A DNA stretch of 64,000 nucleotides from positions 1-64,000 of the forward strand of contig BEHT01000013.1 in NCBI GenBank assembly GCA_002898575.1. Reading direction: 5' to 3'. The notes beneath the pieces are model-generated. The model saw nothing but the letters and a program-made list of their open reading frames with translations, ran no database searches and was not told where the DNA came from. Positions 4,612 through 10,061 of this stretch are shown in pieces (positions within the stretch are counted from its first letter, which is position 1; each line of letters opens with the position of its first letter). The translations under genes were made by a program, and so were the position numbers. Origin of the DNA: a bacterium HR17. GTDB taxonomy: Bacteria; Armatimonadota; Fervidibacteria; Fervidibacterales; Fervidibacteraceae.

Positions 4612-5934
4612 ATGAGTTTGAAGCGCTGCCTGAACGGGGTTTTGTTGATTGTCCTAATCGCTGTCGGAGGGTGCAGCAACCCTAACTCGGTAGTGGGACC
4701 TACCCCGCCACCAATACAACGCACACCCAAACTGTGGACTGTGTTGGTCTATCAAGCGGGCGACAACGACTTGGAAGACGCCCTTATCAAAGACTTCAAC
4801 GAAATGGAGCGCATCGGCAGCGACGACAACCTCAACATCGTCGTCCAACTAGACCGCTCGCCCCGTTACGACACTTCTAACGGTGACTGGTCCACGACCC
4901 GCCGCTACTATGTCACCCGCGACCCGCAAGAGTCCTTTCCGCCCGATTTTACCACTCCTCCCAACAACACCATCCGCAGCCAACTCATCGCTGATTTGGG
5001 CAAGGTAAACATGGGCGATGGGAATGTGCTGCGGGATTTTTTGCTCTGGGGCATCCAAAACTTTCCCGCCCAGCGCTACTTGGTCATCTTGTCTGATCAC
5101 GGGGCAGGGGTGCGCCCCTTTCGGCTCCGCAGGCAGCCGACACGGGGCATGATGTTTGCCGACAGTTTCAACGACTACCTCAACGAGGACGAGACCAAAC
5201 AAGCCTTTGCCGCCGCTGTGCAACTTTTGGGGCGCCCCATTGACATCATCGGCTTAGACGCCTCAGAAATGAGCGAGATTGAGATCGCCTATCAACTGCG
5301 GGATGCCTGCCGTTACCTGATCGCGTCGCAACTTTCTGAGCCCAATGACGGCTACCCCTACGACCGCTTTTTGTTTGAGTTGCAGCGCAACCCCAGCATC
5401 AGCACGGAAGAGTTTTTGCAACGCTTCGTTCAGCACTACATCGCCAGTTACCAACCGGGGCAGCCGACCAATGGGGCAGGGAGTGCAGTGACGATCGCCG
5501 TCTACAATCAAAGCGTCGTGCCCAGTTATGTGCAGCGGGTAGACGCCTTAGCCCAAGTGCTCCTCAACAAAATCCCGCAATATCGCCAGCAGTTCATCAA
5601 TTTGCGCAATCAGACCCAGACCTTCAGCGAAGTGATTTACCGCGACCTTTACCACTACTGCCAGTTGTTGAGGGCGAACATTGACGATGCTGCTATCCGC
5701 CAAGCGGCGCAGGCGGTGATGGACTTACACGGTCCCAATGCGGGCAAGGCGCTGCTCTACGAATCCCACGCCAGTGGGTTTGACGCGGATGTTAGCAACG
5801 CTCACGGGATTGCCATCTACTTCCCTGACCCCGCCCAGTTTGACAGCCGCTACCTCAACGCCAACGATTTTGCCCGCCAAACCCATTGGGGTCTGTTCTT
5901 GCAAGCATTGGGGACAGGCACGCCTTTGCCTTAG
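4612..5934 (+). CDS. Clostripain-family (C11) lipoprotein with Ser in place of the nucleophile Cys
   Basis: The 440-residue product begins with a lipoprotein signal (LIVLIAVGGC), so it is probably anchored outside the cytoplasmic membrane. The body matches C11 (clostripain-like) peptidases: WTVLVYQAGDNDLE, the histidine block VILSDHGAGV (His163) and the block DIIGLDASEMSEIEIAYQL. In active family members the latter reads DACxM with Cys as nucleophile. Here the codon at 5263-5265 is TCA, Ser218. The 55-residue spacing between His163 and Ser218 equals that of the clostripain dyad (His176/Cys231), so the alignment is secure. It is either a pseudo-protease or a serine variant. The ribosome site is AAGGAGG. 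Confidence 0.85.
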   Translation: MSLKRCLNGVLLIVLIAVGGCSNPNSVVGPTPPPIQRTPKLWTVLVYQAGDNDLEDALIKDFNEMERIGSDDNLNIVVQLDRSPRYDTSNGDWSTTRRYYVTRDPQESFPPDFTTPPNNTIRSQLIADLGKVNMGDGNVLRDFLLWGIQNFPAQRYLVILSDHGAGVRPFRLRRQPTRGMMFADSFNDYLNEDETKQAFAAAVQLLGRPIDIIGLDASEMSEIEIAYQLRDACRYLIASQLSEPNDGYPYDRFLFELQRNPSISTEEFLQRFVQHYIASYQPGQPTNGAGSAVTIAVYNQSVVPSYVQRVDALAQVLLNKIPQYRQQFINLRNQTQTFSEVIYRDLYHYCQLLRANIDDAAIRQAAQAVMDLHGPNAGKALLYESHASGFDADVSNAHGIAIYFPDPAQFDSRYLNANDFARQTHWGLFLQALGTGTPLP

Positions 5935-5950
5935 GGCGCAAACTGCGCCC
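5934..5950. terminator. Hairpin between convergent genes
   Basis: GGGCGCA pairs with TGCGCCC around a 3-base loop, starting on the last base of the clostripain-like stop codon. It lies between two convergent genes and has no T-tract, so its termination role is inferred from position. Confidence 0.45.
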
Positions 5951-5969
5951 ACGCCCCGTCGGCAACGCC

Positions 5970-6377
5970 TCATTCGGGGCATTGCAAAACCGCGTGCTTA
6001 ACGGCAGCCAAGACTTCTTCCACCGACGGAAACCCTTTGCCGGAAGCGTTCCAATGACGAACGACGACGCCGTTGCGGTCAACGAGTAAAACGCCCGCCG
6101 CATCGCCGTCCAACCACGCCCGTCGTGCCGCTCCGCTTTCGTCCAGTACGCCCTCGCAGCCGTTAGGGACTTTGCTGCCCCGCCACACCAACAGCAGGTT
6201 CGCGTCCCACTCGGCAAGTCGTTCTTTTGCTGCTGCGTAGAGTCGGCAATGTGCCCGACAGACGTGACAGTTGCTGTCGTGTAACATCGCGACGACCGTA
6301 ACAGCGTAACGACGCCAATCAGGCGTAAACGGTGCACCGTCAGGCATCTTTAGAGTAACTGGTGGCAAACGCCTCAA
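5970..6377 (-). CDS. Thioredoxin-fold redoxin protein
   Basis: This 135-residue protein has an AhpC/TSA- or thioredoxin-like layout. It shows MPDGAPFTPDWRRYAVTVVA, then a CHVC redox motif in SNCHVCRAHCRLY, and later GVLLVDRNGVVVRHW near the end. It probably carries out thiol redox chemistry. No export signal is visible. I place the start at the TTG at 6377 because AAAGGAGGGA lies just upstream. This TTG overlaps the stop of the preceding heme-copper-like gene (TTGA), pointing to translational coupling. It is the last gene of a three-gene operon with DUF309 and the oxidase-like protein. Confidence 0.7.
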   Translation of the reverse strand: MRRLPPVTLKMPDGAPFTPDWRRYAVTVVAMLHDSNCHVCRAHCRLYAAAKERLAEWDANLLLVWRGSKVPNGCEGVLDESGAARRAWLDGDAAGVLLVDRNGVVVRHWNASGKGFPSVEEVLAAVKHAVLQCPE

Positions 6378-6841
6378 AGGTTTTCCCTCCTTTGCGGCAA
6401 CGGTTCGCGGTCTTCTTGCATCAGTTTGCCCATCGGACGAATGCGTGTCCAAATGTTGGTGACAAAAAGCAGAATGGCAACACCTTGCGCCAACCCGCCG
6501 ACCGCTGAAAGGGTCAGCCACCAGCGAGCGGTGGAGTAACTCGCCGCAATTTCGCCTAACGCCCGCACGGCGGTTCCGATTGTGACGAGCCAATAAATCG
6601 CTTCTGAAAGCAGTGGGCTGTAACGGGCGTCTTTGGGGCGCGGGAACATCCAGATGGCGACGCCCATGATCATCATCGCCACGAAGCCGACGAGAAACAG
6701 ATGCCCATGAGCCGTCGGCAGCCACCGCAGGGCTTTGGGTTCGCCGAAACGCTGCGCGGCGATCATGTGCATGCCTAACAGCGTGCTCAGCACTGCGAAC
6801 ACAAGGCTCGTTTTGATGTAACGGCGCGCCAATTCAAACAT
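6374..6841 (-). CDS. Short heme-copper oxidase subunit I-like membrane protein
   Basis: The 155-residue product has four predicted membrane helices. The piece TAHGHLFLVGFVAMMIMGVAIWMFPR resembles the HGH-LxxxGF-MG-xWMxP region of cbb3/NorB-type subunit I. Only a fragment-sized part of such a subunit is present, as in small stand-alone COX1-like proteins. It may bind heme through its His residues, but it lacks the full set of copper-site ligands and is unlikely to be an oxidase alone. The ATG at 6841 follows AAAGGAGGGA and overlaps the end of the DUF309 gene by 8 bases. Confidence 0.6.
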   Translation of the reverse strand: MFELARRYIKTSLVFAVLSTLLGMHMIAAQRFGEPKALRWLPTAHGHLFLVGFVAMMIMGVAIWMFPRPKDARYSPLLSEAIYWLVTIGTAVRALGEIAASYSTARWWLTLSAVGGLAQGVAILLFVTNIWTRIRPMGKLMQEDREPLPQRRENL

Positions 6842-7313
6842 CGGGACGCTCCCTCCTTTGTCGTTCAGGCACATCGGCTTTGGCGCGGTGTAACCGTTGG
6901 CGTCGGGGCGGCACCACGCCGTCGGGCACGATCCGGGGCTTGAGCGCCCAATTGAAGCGCTTTTTACTGCCCTGCAATATGGCGTCCACCTCTCGCTGAA
7001 GCGCCGCCACTTGCCGCTGTAATTCTGGCAGCGCCACGCCCAGCACTTTGCCGGGGCACGCTTGCAAGTAGCGGCTCACCCGCAACAGCAAATTGCGCAC
7101 CCCGCGCCATTCGCCCCGTTCGGCGTGGATGAGGGCGGCGTCCAGTTGAATGAGCGCTTTCAAGAAACTCCGTTCAGGTTCGCCGACTTTGCGCCATAAA
7201 CTCTCCCACGCCTCATGCGAGTGCCAATAGCAGCCCCGCCAATAAAGGCGCAGCCCGTCCAAAAATTCGGGCGGGTAGTTCGTTTGTTTTTCGCCGCTCC
7301 GTTGTCGTGTCAT
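6834..7313 (-). CDS. DUF309 domain protein
   Basis: This 159-residue protein carries the DUF309 signature FLDGLRLYWRGCYWHSHEAWESLWR near the N-terminus, followed by FLKALIQLDAALIHAERG. DUF309 proteins are small helical proteins of unknown function. The C-terminal 35 residues are Arg-rich and partly overlap the next gene. It leads a co-directional operon with a heme-copper-like protein and a redoxin, and is divergent from the cytochrome-bd-like pair, so a role in respiratory or redox physiology is an inference from context. Confidence 0.75.
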   Translation of the reverse strand: MTRQRSGEKQTNYPPEFLDGLRLYWRGCYWHSHEAWESLWRKVGEPERSFLKALIQLDAALIHAERGEWRGVRNLLLRVSRYLQACPGKVLGVALPELQRQVAALQREVDAILQGSKKRFNWALKPRIVPDGVVPPRRQRLHRAKADVPERQRRERPDV

Positions 7314-7349
7314 CCCGTTATTCAGCCCTCACTCTTCGGCGTTGCCACG

Positions 7350-7374
7350 GTAGGTGGCTCAGCAGCCACCCTAC
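7350..7374. repeat. GTAGG-bounded palindrome in a divergent promoter region
   Basis: GTAGGTGGCT, a CAGC loop and AGCCACCCTAC form an imperfect hairpin with one unpaired base. It sits in the 140-base gap between the DUF309 operon and the divergent bd-like operon. A second palindrome with the same GTAGG...CCTAC ends lies at 58930-58960, so this may be a dispersed REP-like repeat. Confidence 0.4.
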
Positions 7375-7453
7375 ATCGGACGGCGTCGGATGAAACTGAG
7401 CGATAAAAGTATCTGGCAAAATTTTTGCGTTCATGCGTGCGAGGTGATGAGCG

Positions 7454-8572
7454 ATGGAGCAGCAAGGCGGTTTTATTCCAACGCCCGAACCTATCCCGCT
7501 GCCGGCGCCTGTTTGGCTGCTGCAAGCGTTGCTGTTTATCACCTTCGTTGTGCACCTTGTTCCGATGAACTTGACTTTGGGCGGGCTGATGTTTTTGGCG
7601 TGGGGCGAATGGAGCCATGCACTGGACGAACGGCTGCGCCAATGGGTTGTCCGCTACTTGCCCATCACGACGGCGTTCACGATCACGACGGGCATTGCGC
7701 CTTTGCTGTTTTTGCAGGTGACCTACGGGCAATTTTTCTTTCCCGCCGCCATCCTCATCGCCTGGGCGTGGCTGCTGGTCATTGCAGCGCTGCTGCTCGG
7801 CTACTACGGCATTTACGCCTACGCGTGGGCGAGTGACCGCTTGGAGCGATGGCGCTGTTGGGTCATCGTTGCCAGCACGCTGCTTTTTCTTTACATTGCG
7901 TTTGCCTTCAGCAATGTCATCACGCTGATGGCGACACCCTTTCGCTGGTGGATTTTGTGGCAAGAAACCCCGTCTGACCGCCATTTCAACCTCAACTGGT
8001 GGGAGCCGACTTTGTTGCCGCGCTTTGCCCACTTCGTTTTGGCGTCAGCGGCGTTTTTCGGGTTGACGATGGCGCTCTACGGCGTCGCCGTCGTCGCCAA
8101 GCGCGATAGCGATGGCGCCATCGCTTTTCACCGCACGGGCGTCCGTTGGTTCGTTGCCCCGACGCTGCTCAACTACTTCGTCGGTCCACTGTTTTTGCTG
8201 TTACACGAAAAAAGCGTTTGGCAAAAGTTCGTCGGTGCAGATGGCGTCAGCACAGCGCTGTTGGTAGTGGGCATCGGTCTTTCCATCGTGGGCGTTATCG
8301 CCGCCGCGTTGAGCCTACGGGTGCGTCCCTTGCCGATGTTACTGGTCGCCTTCGGGGCGATGGGCGGGACGATAGTGATGATGGCGGGCGTTCGGTTCGT
8401 GTTGCGCCAGCACCTTTTGGCGCTTCACGCCCCACAAGTGCGCCTTAGCGATGTCCCCGTGCAACCCCAGTGGGGCATCGTCGTCCTTTTCGCCCTCCTG
8501 CTGGTGTTCGGTTTGGGCACGGTGATCTGGATGGTGTTGCAGCTGCAACGGGCGTGGGGGAAAATGCCCTGA
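7454..8572 (+). CDS. Cytochrome bd subunit I-like membrane protein (first of a pair)
   Basis: The 372-residue product is almost entirely membrane helices, about nine. VVHLVPMNLTLGG aligns with the HFLFVPLTLG segment of CydA, placing His34 at the position of the high-spin heme ligand (E. coli His19). RFAHFVLASAAFFG aligns with FVHTVASGY, placing His193 at the heme b558 ligand His186. The quinol-binding Q-loop is not evident. The ATG follows GAGGTGATGAGCG. It is followed by a second, more diverged CydA-like protein with a cytochrome c tail, suggesting a two-subunit complex of two CydA-type chains instead of CydA plus CydB. Confidence 0.6.
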   Translation: MEQQGGFIPTPEPIPLPAPVWLLQALLFITFVVHLVPMNLTLGGLMFLAWGEWSHALDERLRQWVVRYLPITTAFTITTGIAPLLFLQVTYGQFFFPAAILIAWAWLLVIAALLLGYYGIYAYAWASDRLERWRCWVIVASTLLFLYIAFAFSNVITLMATPFRWWILWQETPSDRHFNLNWWEPTLLPRFAHFVLASAAFFGLTMALYGVAVVAKRDSDGAIAFHRTGVRWFVAPTLLNYFVGPLFLLLHEKSVWQKFVGADGVSTALLVVGIGLSIVGVIAAALSLRVRPLPMLLVAFGAMGGTIVMMAGVRFVLRQHLLALHAPQVRLSDVPVQPQWGIVVLFALLLVFGLGTVIWMVLQLQRAWGKMP

Positions 8573-8607
8573 GGGTTGATAATAGCCGAAGGAGACAACA
8601 ATGGACG

Positions 8608-8745
8608 ATGGGCACATCGCTCAGCATGTGCCGGATGCCCGCTGCCAACGCGGTTTCTGTAAAATTTTTGCGGGAGCAGCCAAGCACCGCTGCCGCAGAT
8701 GACGGAACGCTGCGTCGCTTTGGGCAAGGAGGGAGCGGGCGATGA
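8608..8745 (+). CDS. Possible 45-residue small ORF between the two bd-like genes
   Basis: An ATG at 8608 opens a 45-codon frame that ends in an ATGA overlap with the next gene's start at 8742. A ribosome-site-like GAAGGAG lies at 8588-8594. A competing 33-codon frame starts at 8601 and sits better behind this site. Neither product is hydrophobic, so it does not look like a CydX-type subunit, and no family is recognised. It may simply be spacer. Confidence 0.2.
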   Translation: MGTSLSMCRMPAANAVSVKFLREQPSTAAADDGTLRRFGQGGSGR

Positions 8746-10061
8746 ACTACCCTGTCTGGGAAGTGCCTTATTTGGGCGGCGGGATGCTGATTGGCATCAT
8801 CGCCATCGCCCATGTCTTTATCGCCCACTTCGCAGTCGGCGGTGGGTTGTTTTTGCCCCTGACGGAACTTAAGGCATATCGCGAAAACGACCCGCGCGTC
8901 TTGGACTATGTGCGCCAGCACACGCGCTTTTTCGTTTTGCTGGTGTTGGTGGCAGGGGCGGTGACGGGCGTCGGGATTTGGTGGACGATTGGCTTGGTCC
9001 ATCCGTCAGCGACCCGCACTTTGCTGCTGGTTTTCGTTTGGGTGTGGGCAACAGAGTGGGTGGCGTTTTTCGTGGAGATTGCGGCGGCGTTCGTCTACTA
9101 CTACGGCTGGGACAGATTGCCGCCCCGCACTCACCTACTCGTCGGTGGCATCTATTTCGCTGCCGCGTGGGTTTCGCTTTTTCTCATCAACGGCATCCTC
9201 TGCTTCATGTTGACACCGGGCACATGGCTGCAAACGCGGTCGCTTTGGGACGCGTTTTTCAACCCGACGACGCTACCGTCCCTCTTTTTGCGGACGCTGA
9301 TCGCCATCGCATTGGCAGGCATCTTTGCGTTGGTCACGGCGACACAATTGCGACCTGAGGACTTACGGGCGAAGATGGTGCGTTGGGCGGCACAATGGCT
9401 CATCCCCGCAGGGTTGCTCATGCCTCTCGGGTTGGCATGGTATTTAACGCAGGTGCCCGACAGCGCCAAGCGGTTGGCATTGGGTGGAGCGGCACCCGTG
9501 TTGACCGTGTTCGTGACGATGAGTTTGCTGATGTCGGTGCTGATTTTCGCCTTCAGTTACCTCGGCGCGTTTCGGTTGCCCCACACCTTCAGCCAGCCTT
9601 TCGCCCTGCTGATCATGGCGTTGGCGTTTCTGACGACGGGCATGACCGAATGGGTGCGGGAAGCCGTCCGCAAACCCTTTGTTATCTACGGCTACATGTT
9701 CAGCAACGCCGTGCGCCCTGAAGAAGTCCCCTTGTTGCGACGGCGGGGTGTGTTGACGGTTGCCAAATGGGCGACGGTGCCGCGCGTCACACCGGACAAC
9801 TGGCGGGACGCTGGGCGTGAACTGTTTCGCTTGCAATGTGCCAGTTGCCACACCCTTGACGGCTACAACGGCATCAAACCCCTGATTCTTGGCTGGGACG
9901 AACGCATGATTGACCACGCGTTGCAACGGTTGCACCGGTTGCGCGGGTTCATGCCGCCCTTTGCGGGCACAGAGGCGGAGCGCAAAGCGTTGGCGAAATG
10001 GTTGGCGGAGTTGGCGCGGCAGGAAGCGTGGGAATTCAAGGCACAAGGTGAACGACGATGA
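8742..10061 (+). CDS. Cytochrome bd subunit I-like protein fused to a C-terminal cytochrome c domain
   Basis: The 439-residue product has about nine membrane helices followed by a soluble tail. IAHVFIAHFAVGGG matches the CydA HFLFVPLTLG region (His24, plus His29). FFVEIAAAFVYYYGWDRL matches the conserved FFFExxFxGLxxFGWDRL of CydA. At the heme b558 ligand position the sequence is LFLRTL, so His186 is replaced by Arg. The tail carries CASCH (Cys366, Cys369, His370) with FMPPF (Met404) as probable axial ligand, a class I cytochrome c. Electrons probably pass from a periplasmic donor through heme c to the b-type center. It overlaps the following Gfo/Idh gene by ATGA. Confidence 0.65.
   Translation: MNYPVWEVPYLGGGMLIGIIAIAHVFIAHFAVGGGLFLPLTELKAYRENDPRVLDYVRQHTRFFVLLVLVAGAVTGVGIWWTIGLVHPSATRTLLLVFVWVWATEWVAFFVEIAAAFVYYYGWDRLPPRTHLLVGGIYFAAAWVSLFLINGILCFMLTPGTWLQTRSLWDAFFNPTTLPSLFLRTLIAIALAGIFALVTATQLRPEDLRAKMVRWAAQWLIPAGLLMPLGLAWYLTQVPDSAKRLALGGAAPVLTVFVTMSLLMSVLIFAFSYLGAFRLPHTFSQPFALLIMALAFLTTGMTEWVREAVRKPFVIYGYMFSNAVRPEEVPLLRRRGVLTVAKWATVPRVTPDNWRDAGRELFRLQCASCHTLDGYNGIKPLILGWDERMIDHALQRLHRLRGFMPPFAGTEAERKALAKWLAELARQEAWEFKAQGERR

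Follow-up and report, generated by a model that had tools for sequence, protein, structure and literature searches.

A tandem pair of CydA-like proteins, one with a fused cytochrome c, as a proposed cytochrome c-fed member of the bd superfamily

The closest relatives of the locus described here are found among cytochromes bd and bd-like proteins. In the archaeal CydAA' of Caldivirga, two CydA paralogues reportedly take the place of CydAB and form a quinol oxidase. The founding paper of the OR-C family is said to be that of Murali, Gennis and Hemp (2021), and we take this family to comprise bd-superfamily CydA proteins that have no quinol site and bear a haem c. The E. coli CydA residues used below for comparison (H19, E445, E99/E107, K252/E257 and H186/M393) are haem-ligand, proton-path or quinol residues of cytochrome bd.

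The bd superfamily is split into qOR, OR-C and OR-N in the available parts of two sources (PMC13189123, PMC10839748), and the OR-C name is also used in an excerpt of PMC11707229. For the nitrite oxidisers, the available text of PMC10839748 presents OR-N as presumed CydAA' pairs with cytochrome c as their donor and describes experimental confirmation of composition and function as lacking, and OR-N5 pairs are placed downstream of alternative complex III in an excerpt of PMC12342949. Chimaeras of CydA with multiple c-type cytochromes, known from more than 50 delta-proteobacteria, are set aside as not being proper bd oxidases in the portion of PMC5322542 that is available.

The window, which is the whole stretch of 64,000 nucleotides that was analysed, carries two neighbouring genes whose products, P1 and P2, are two CydA-fold proteins. 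The coordinates and frames assigned to both genes in the first-pass annotation were correct, and the features are as follows.

7454-8572, + strand: gene 1, encoding P1 (372 aa), with nine predicted transmembrane helices and without haem c
8742-10061, + strand: gene 2, encoding P2 (439 aa), with eight predicted transmembrane helices and a C-terminal fused cytochrome c
8742..9668, + strand: bd-type membrane core of P2 (residues 1-309), from alignment and fold match
9789..10028, + strand: cytochrome c domain of P2 (residues ~350-429), predicted to be periplasmic, with C366-x-x-C369-H370 and the presumed axial ligand M404

A Pfam search identified P2 as Cyt_bd_oxida_I (E 1.7e-18) followed by Cytochrome_CBB3 (E 9e-8), and P2 is the sole PF01654 match in the source assembly (3.15 Mb, 96% complete). 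The GWDRL segment and the CASCH motif that had been read in P2 are both present, the former being common to E. coli CydA and the latter lying at residues 366-370. P1 gave zero family matches in Pfam and NCBIfam, and no match in PHROGs.

Some features around the pair were also recorded. Between the two genes lies a 33-aa reading frame (8601-8702, + strand) with a Shine-Dalgarno-like stretch, which is not kept in the same-family genome G003, whose P1 and P2 genes overlap. A gene for a DUF309 protein (6837-7313, - strand; E 3.6e-17) immediately precedes the pair and runs in the opposite direction. A COX1-like four-helix protein of 166 aa (PF00115, E 1e-9) is encoded at 6374-6874, likewise on the - strand and thus opposite to the pair, and a similar weak COX1-like match exists in G003 on another contig. 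A functional link of the pair with the DUF309 or the COX1-like protein, or with the downstream gene that overlaps P2 by 4 bases, was considered and rejected, no counterparts having been seen in 21 neighbourhoods inspected by eye.

Kinship with CydA was found both by profiles and by predicted structures. A profile of 36 P2 proteins matched E. coli CydA at E 1e-5 and the Geobacillus CydA structure 5doq at E 5.9e-13, and the P1 profile matched the P2 profile at E 7.9e-13 over 293 columns. Searched directly, the P1 profile did not detect E. coli CydA, and the kinship of P1 with it is reached only via P2 and the fold. The first-pass annotation had named structure models without a bd-like haem pocket as evidence against its proposal; the AlphaFold models (pLDDT 91.3 for P2 and 90.7 for P1) both show the bd fold. 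The best match of the P2 model was a CydA chain (Z 32.3, rmsd 2.8, 315 aligned) and that of the P1 model was the CydA of E. coli bd-II (Z 30.9, rmsd 3.4, 347 aligned). Taking both models together, CydA chains gave Z 27.4-32.3, and the next group was formed by NrfD-like subunits of alternative complex III and the polysulfide reductase PsrC (Z 15.6-19.9). The CydA match of P2 stops short of the final CydA helix, still present in P1, and the modelled P2 tail matched cytochrome c6 (Z 7.7, 77 aligned). P1 as a CydB homologue was rejected: it had no profile match to E. coli CydB, and whenever a bd entry came up in the fold comparison, its best-scoring chain was CydA.

In a FastTree tree P1, P2 and qOR formed one clade each (support 0.995-1.0), the tree having taken in these three kinds only. 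The sample consisted of 33 of the 104 P1 rows, 33 of the 107 P2 rows, two plasmid proteins per kind and 15 canonical CydA; the row sets exclude proteins of 330 aa or less, matches with E >1e-30 and near-identical cores.

P2 keeps the presumed di-haem and proton-path residues. Its H24, E105, E112, H131, E307 and R310 are equivalent to E. coli H19, E99, E107, H126, E445 and R448, and in an alignment with 15 canonical CydA they are kept in 34 of 35 sampled rows at H19 (one gap) and at E99, and in 35 of 35 at each of the other positions. Across all 107 rows H24 is found in 106 and M404 in 105, and E303, R306, E307, R310, K311, R184 and the CxxCH residues are invariant. If the CydA fold, the H19/E445 ligands and the Glu99/Glu107 pair are taken as the marks of the bd superfamily, P2 has all of them and P1 only the fold and H19.

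The b595-histidine region had been recognised in both proteins, which is the case, the H19 equivalent being H34 in P1 and H24 in P2. In P1 this residue is His in 104 of 104 rows, and R190 is equally invariant (104/104). The sampled alignment gave P1 no equivalents of E99 and E107. At the Glu445 position the P1 of the window has Phe315, and 31 of the 35 P1 rows sampled have Asp, His, Glu or Gln, which makes an O2-reducing site of its own unlikely for P1.

The first-pass annotation also held that only P1 keeps a b558 histidine, His193, and that P2 has Arg at this site. His193 does align with E. coli His186, but its reading as a kept ligand is not supported, as position 193 is His in 68, Phe in 29, Tyr in 4 and Met in 3 of the 104 rows; with 36 of 104 P1 relatives carrying another residue, His193 was rejected as a family-wide b558 ligand. 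The Arg of P2 stands in one alignment (the invariant Arg184), but another places Leu183 there. At the Met393 position both proteins have other residues, for the most part aliphatic ones, Met being left in 2 of 35 P2 rows. Since His193 is not family-wide and Met393 is lost from both proteins, haem b558 is probably absent from the pair. One could still imagine P1 as a second haem-bearing electron relay through His34 and perhaps His193, with all else as proposed below. The invariance of H34 and R190, which suggests that a cofactor or structural role is kept, and the presence of His193 in the window speak in its favour; the residues other than His at position 193, the lack of a Met393 equivalent and the Phe315 of the window make such a relay unlikely.

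At the quinol-site residues K252/E257 a gap was found in 35 of 35 P1 and 35 of 35 P2 sampled rows, and the marks of a qOR, that is the Q-loop residues K252/E257 together with the b558 ligands H186/M393, are not found in the pair. This bears on the idea that the pair is a quinol-interacting enzyme, alternative complex III-like or working in reverse electron flow, and not a terminal reductase. Both models do match the NrfD-like subunits and PsrC below CydA, and a quinone role has been floated for the Nitrospina bd-like proteins, if they have a novel quinone binding, in the available part of PMC3578206. We regard this idea as very improbable nonetheless, since the scores of the CydA chains lie well above those matches, the di-haem ligands are kept and the Q-loop residues are not, and the quinol-oxidising module linked to the pair in relatives is a separate cytochrome b with PEWY.

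The orientation of P2 was predicted from the charges of its loops. The presumed inner loops carry on average 2.8, 2.0, 4.2 and 1.8 Lys/Arg and the outer loops 0.0, 0.1, 0.9 and 1.4; the totals are less clear (10.8 in vs 8.4 out) because of the stretch past the last helix, which has conserved Arg/Lys and a mean of 6.0 Lys/Arg. By the loop charges the N-terminus is predicted to lie outside and hence the c-domain also, in the periplasm, on the side of haem c attachment and of electron carriers.

The two genes occur together. When P1 is counted up to E 0.001 and P2 by its strong matches (E 4.1e-37 or better), both genes are found in the identical 55 of 275 genomes of the phylum. The other 18 genomes with P2 matches have weak ones only (E 1.5e-8 to 7.5e-4), and the nine of them that were fetched all proved to be canonical CydA. 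Both genes lie on one contig in 53 of the 55 pair-bearing genomes, counting G007, where the tail of a split P2 precedes P1, and on different contigs in G019 and G082.

No CydB match (PF02322) was found in the genome of the window, which bears out the earlier statement that there is no CydB. PF02322 was above the cut-off in 7 of the 55 pair-bearing genomes, always on a contig other than that of the pair. A CydB fixed beside the pair in relatives, which the first-pass annotation had named as evidence against its proposal, was searched for with the E. coli CydB query, and none adjoins the pair in the named loci (the best 80 of 388, see below). In a control this query recovered CydB next to canonical CydA at 13 of 14 loci of the phylum; 5 of the 14 had been preselected by CydB, and of the other 9 loci 8 gave CydB and one is truncated.

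Scanning public genomes gave 388 relatives, of which the best 80 were kept as the named loci. The titles of these best 80 of 388 include Acidobacteria, Chloroflexota, Bacteroidota, Ignavibacteriae, Kryptonia, Methylomirabilota, Calditrichota, Omnitrophota, Verrucomicrobia, Cyanobacteria and others. P1 lies on the same strand as P2 within 1812 bases in 75 of the best 80 of 388, and within 60 bases in 51 of those 75; in the remaining 5 the region is cut by a contig end. This count, like the 27 of 80 given below for the Rieske/cytochrome b genes, describes the best-80-of-388 sample only. Recurrence in related genomes had been put forward as a check on the pair: it recurs across many phyla and is not a local oddity, and the pair is real and well conserved across them. 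A P1-like gene also directly follows P2 in the three opened of four plasmid records (Thermus, Agrobacterium and Methylosinus). The distances among P1 proteins mirror those among P2 proteins (r 0.89 over the 82 loci with one P1 and one P2 row only; 0 of 1000 permutations as high), which partly reflects the shared descent of neighbouring genes, and only 47 of the 82 loci share the nearest neighbour for P1 and P2. For a putative two-CydA plan of the enzyme, what was observed is the joint occurrence of the genes and the paralogy by profile (E 7.9e-13).

The order of the genes varies. In the best 80 of 388 loci we found P2-P1 (43), P1-Rieske-cytochrome b-P2 (24), P2 alone (4), P2-P2-P1 (3), Rieske-cytochrome b-P2-P1 (2), P1-P2 (1, L126, from the family of the window) and Rieske-cytochrome b-P2 (1), besides two odd loci, L110 with a distant cytochrome b and L120 with a split P1. 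Two tandem P2 paralogues precede a single P1 in L092, L100 and L103, which are metagenome-assembled genomes titled Bacteroidota, Ignavibacteriae and uncultured bacterium. On the plasmids of Agrobacterium (L188) and Methylosinus (L189), genes with the annotations ATP-binding protein and response regulator come after the pair, so that these plasmid pairs may be under two-component control.

Rieske and cytochrome b genes adjoin the pair in 27 of the best 80 of 388 loci, and both were confirmed by Pfam in L077. The cytochrome b of this module, taken to be Qo-competent, has the four haem histidines in 35 of 35 proteins and PEWY in 34 of 35, with one PEWF. Both cluster motifs are present in the 35 Rieske proteins, with CTHMGC or CTHLAC for CxHLGC in 10 of 35 and CxCHS for CxCHG in 2 of 35. 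No clear cytochrome c1 or f gene was found beside the module in the 27 loci. Within 3 kb of the 27 operons an extra CxxCH frame was absent in 22 and single in 5; one of these five, a frame of 156 aa that immediately precedes P1 in L153, may encode a genuine c-type protein. As the linked module is mostly without another CxxCH frame, it seems that electrons usually leave the bc module of linked loci through the P2 haem c, and this arrangement suggests a route from quinol through Rieske/cytochrome b, the P2 haem c and the di-haem site to O2.

With a confidence only a little better than even, we propose that CydA'-Rieske-cytochrome b-CydA-c is a one-operon respiratory unit of many bacteria, in which the fused haem c would replace cytochrome c1 or f and the Q-cycle would directly feed a bd-type active site, in a bc-bd supercomplex; the pair of the window would be the same reductase without a linked bc module. 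The available part of PMC6349859 mentions petB/petC near O2 reductases in Melainabacteria, where a C-type haem-copper reductase is spoken of. Our literature search found no text on a P1-Rieske-cytochrome b-P2 operon, and OR-C by name only.

In the genome of the window the pair stands alone, and the Rieske, cytochrome b and multihaem c genes are located elsewhere, in two haem-copper oxidase clusters. One contig of this genome (C11, L204) encodes at 5128-7578 (- strand) a cytochrome b of 816 aa that includes c-type haem domains by fusion and has 17 CxxCH motifs, adjoining a Rieske gene and a haem-copper oxidase, and at 8164-9768 (+ strand) a cytochrome c552 (PF02335, E 1.5e-75) next to the haem-copper oxidase cluster.

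Drawing on the fold, the ligands, the loss of the quinol site, the co-occurrence and the operon partners, and on the predicted topology, we consider it probable that P1 and P2 form a heterodimeric, cytochrome c-fed, O2-reducing member of the bd superfamily with P2 as the catalytic subunit and P1 as its partner. The heterodimer, the haem content, O2 as substrate, the direction of the electrons and the uptake of protons are what we infer from those data. A heterodimeric, c-fed, bd-like reductase had been suggested in the first-pass annotation; the two co-occurring CydA-like subunits without CydB, the c-type entry and the P2 di-haem site stand, but the role of His193 as b558 ligand does not. The membrane core of P2 would bind the two active-site haems via H24 and E307, protons may be taken from the cytoplasm along the putative E105/E112 route of P2, and electrons would reach P2 through its fused haem c in the periplasm and not from quinol at a Q-loop. 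P1, a degenerate paralogue of CydA, would stand in for CydB as the partner subunit. In the organism of the window a separate bc complex would presumably load the haem c by way of c-type cytochromes, and in many relatives the Rieske protein and cytochrome b of the same operon may load it directly.

O2 is the suggested substrate because the di-haem site is kept. The same path from haem c to the di-haem site would also serve a pair that reduces another substrate, such as nitric oxide or peroxide, for detoxification, and the kept ligands fail to tell O2 from NO or peroxide. A haem-copper COX1 match is found in 48 of the 55 pair-bearing genomes, which thus mostly have another terminal oxidase and therefore do not require O2 reduction by the pair; moreover, canonical bd enzymes can contribute to the detoxification of O2 and NO according to the available part of PMC10839748. 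A detoxifying role nevertheless seems improbable to us, given that the Rieske/cytochrome b genes in 27 of the best 80 of 388 loci look like a main respiratory chain and that inspection of 21 neighbourhoods by eye revealed no gene of NO metabolism next to the pair. Among the 7 of 55 genomes without COX1, G062-G064 have CydB and G135, G196 and G214 are only 70-80% complete. The seventh, G040 (98% complete), has the order P1-Rieske-cytochrome b-P2 and neither COX1 nor CydB; it leans towards O2 as substrate. It is the only nearly complete pair genome of this kind, and missing contigs or another oxidase (AOX) could also account for it.

If the proposed O2 reductase is true, bd chemistry can couple to the Q-cycle, with an energy yield above that usually assigned to bd, and some genomes annotated as being without a bd oxidase do have one. 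In the plasmid records the P2-like genes are annotated as 'cytochrome c' or 'c-type cytochrome'; the gene that follows is, in the three opened of four records, a 'hypothetical protein' or 'cytochrome C'. The most interesting part is found outside the window, in the relatives that have the bc module in the operon of the pair, and the plasmid copy in Thermus thermophilus offers a tractable host for the pair.

Compared with the known systems, the pair shares with canonical CydAB (E. coli, Geobacillus) the CydA fold and the di-haem ligands, but it has no CydB, Q-loop or b558 ligand pair, it has an added haem c, and P2 does not have the last CydA helix. The proposed bc-bd supercomplex would have a parallel in the actinobacterial bcc-aa3 supercomplex. 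Unlike the Caldivirga CydAA', the pair has no quinol site and carries a haem c. By the definition given at the outset, it most likely belongs to the OR-C branch, with a CydAA'-like plan: P2 is, like OR-C, a bd-superfamily CydA without quinol site, and it bears a haem c, as the CydA of OR-C reportedly does. The OR-N CydAA' of Nitrospira and Nitrospina are alike in having two CydA-like subunits and a presumed cytochrome c donor, according to the available parts of PMC10839748 and PMC12342949, and in being without a quinol site, according to an excerpt of PMC12324825. In the pair, by contrast, the catalytic subunit carries a fused haem c, and the complex linked in relatives is Rieske/cytochrome b; moreover, 14 helices are predicted for the Nitrospina bd-like protein in the available part of PMC3578206, against 8 in P2 and 9 in P1. 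The delta-proteobacterial chimaeras, as described in the available portion of PMC5322542, likewise have CydA joined to c-type haem and no cydB, but they contain several c-type cytochromes whereas P2 contains one.
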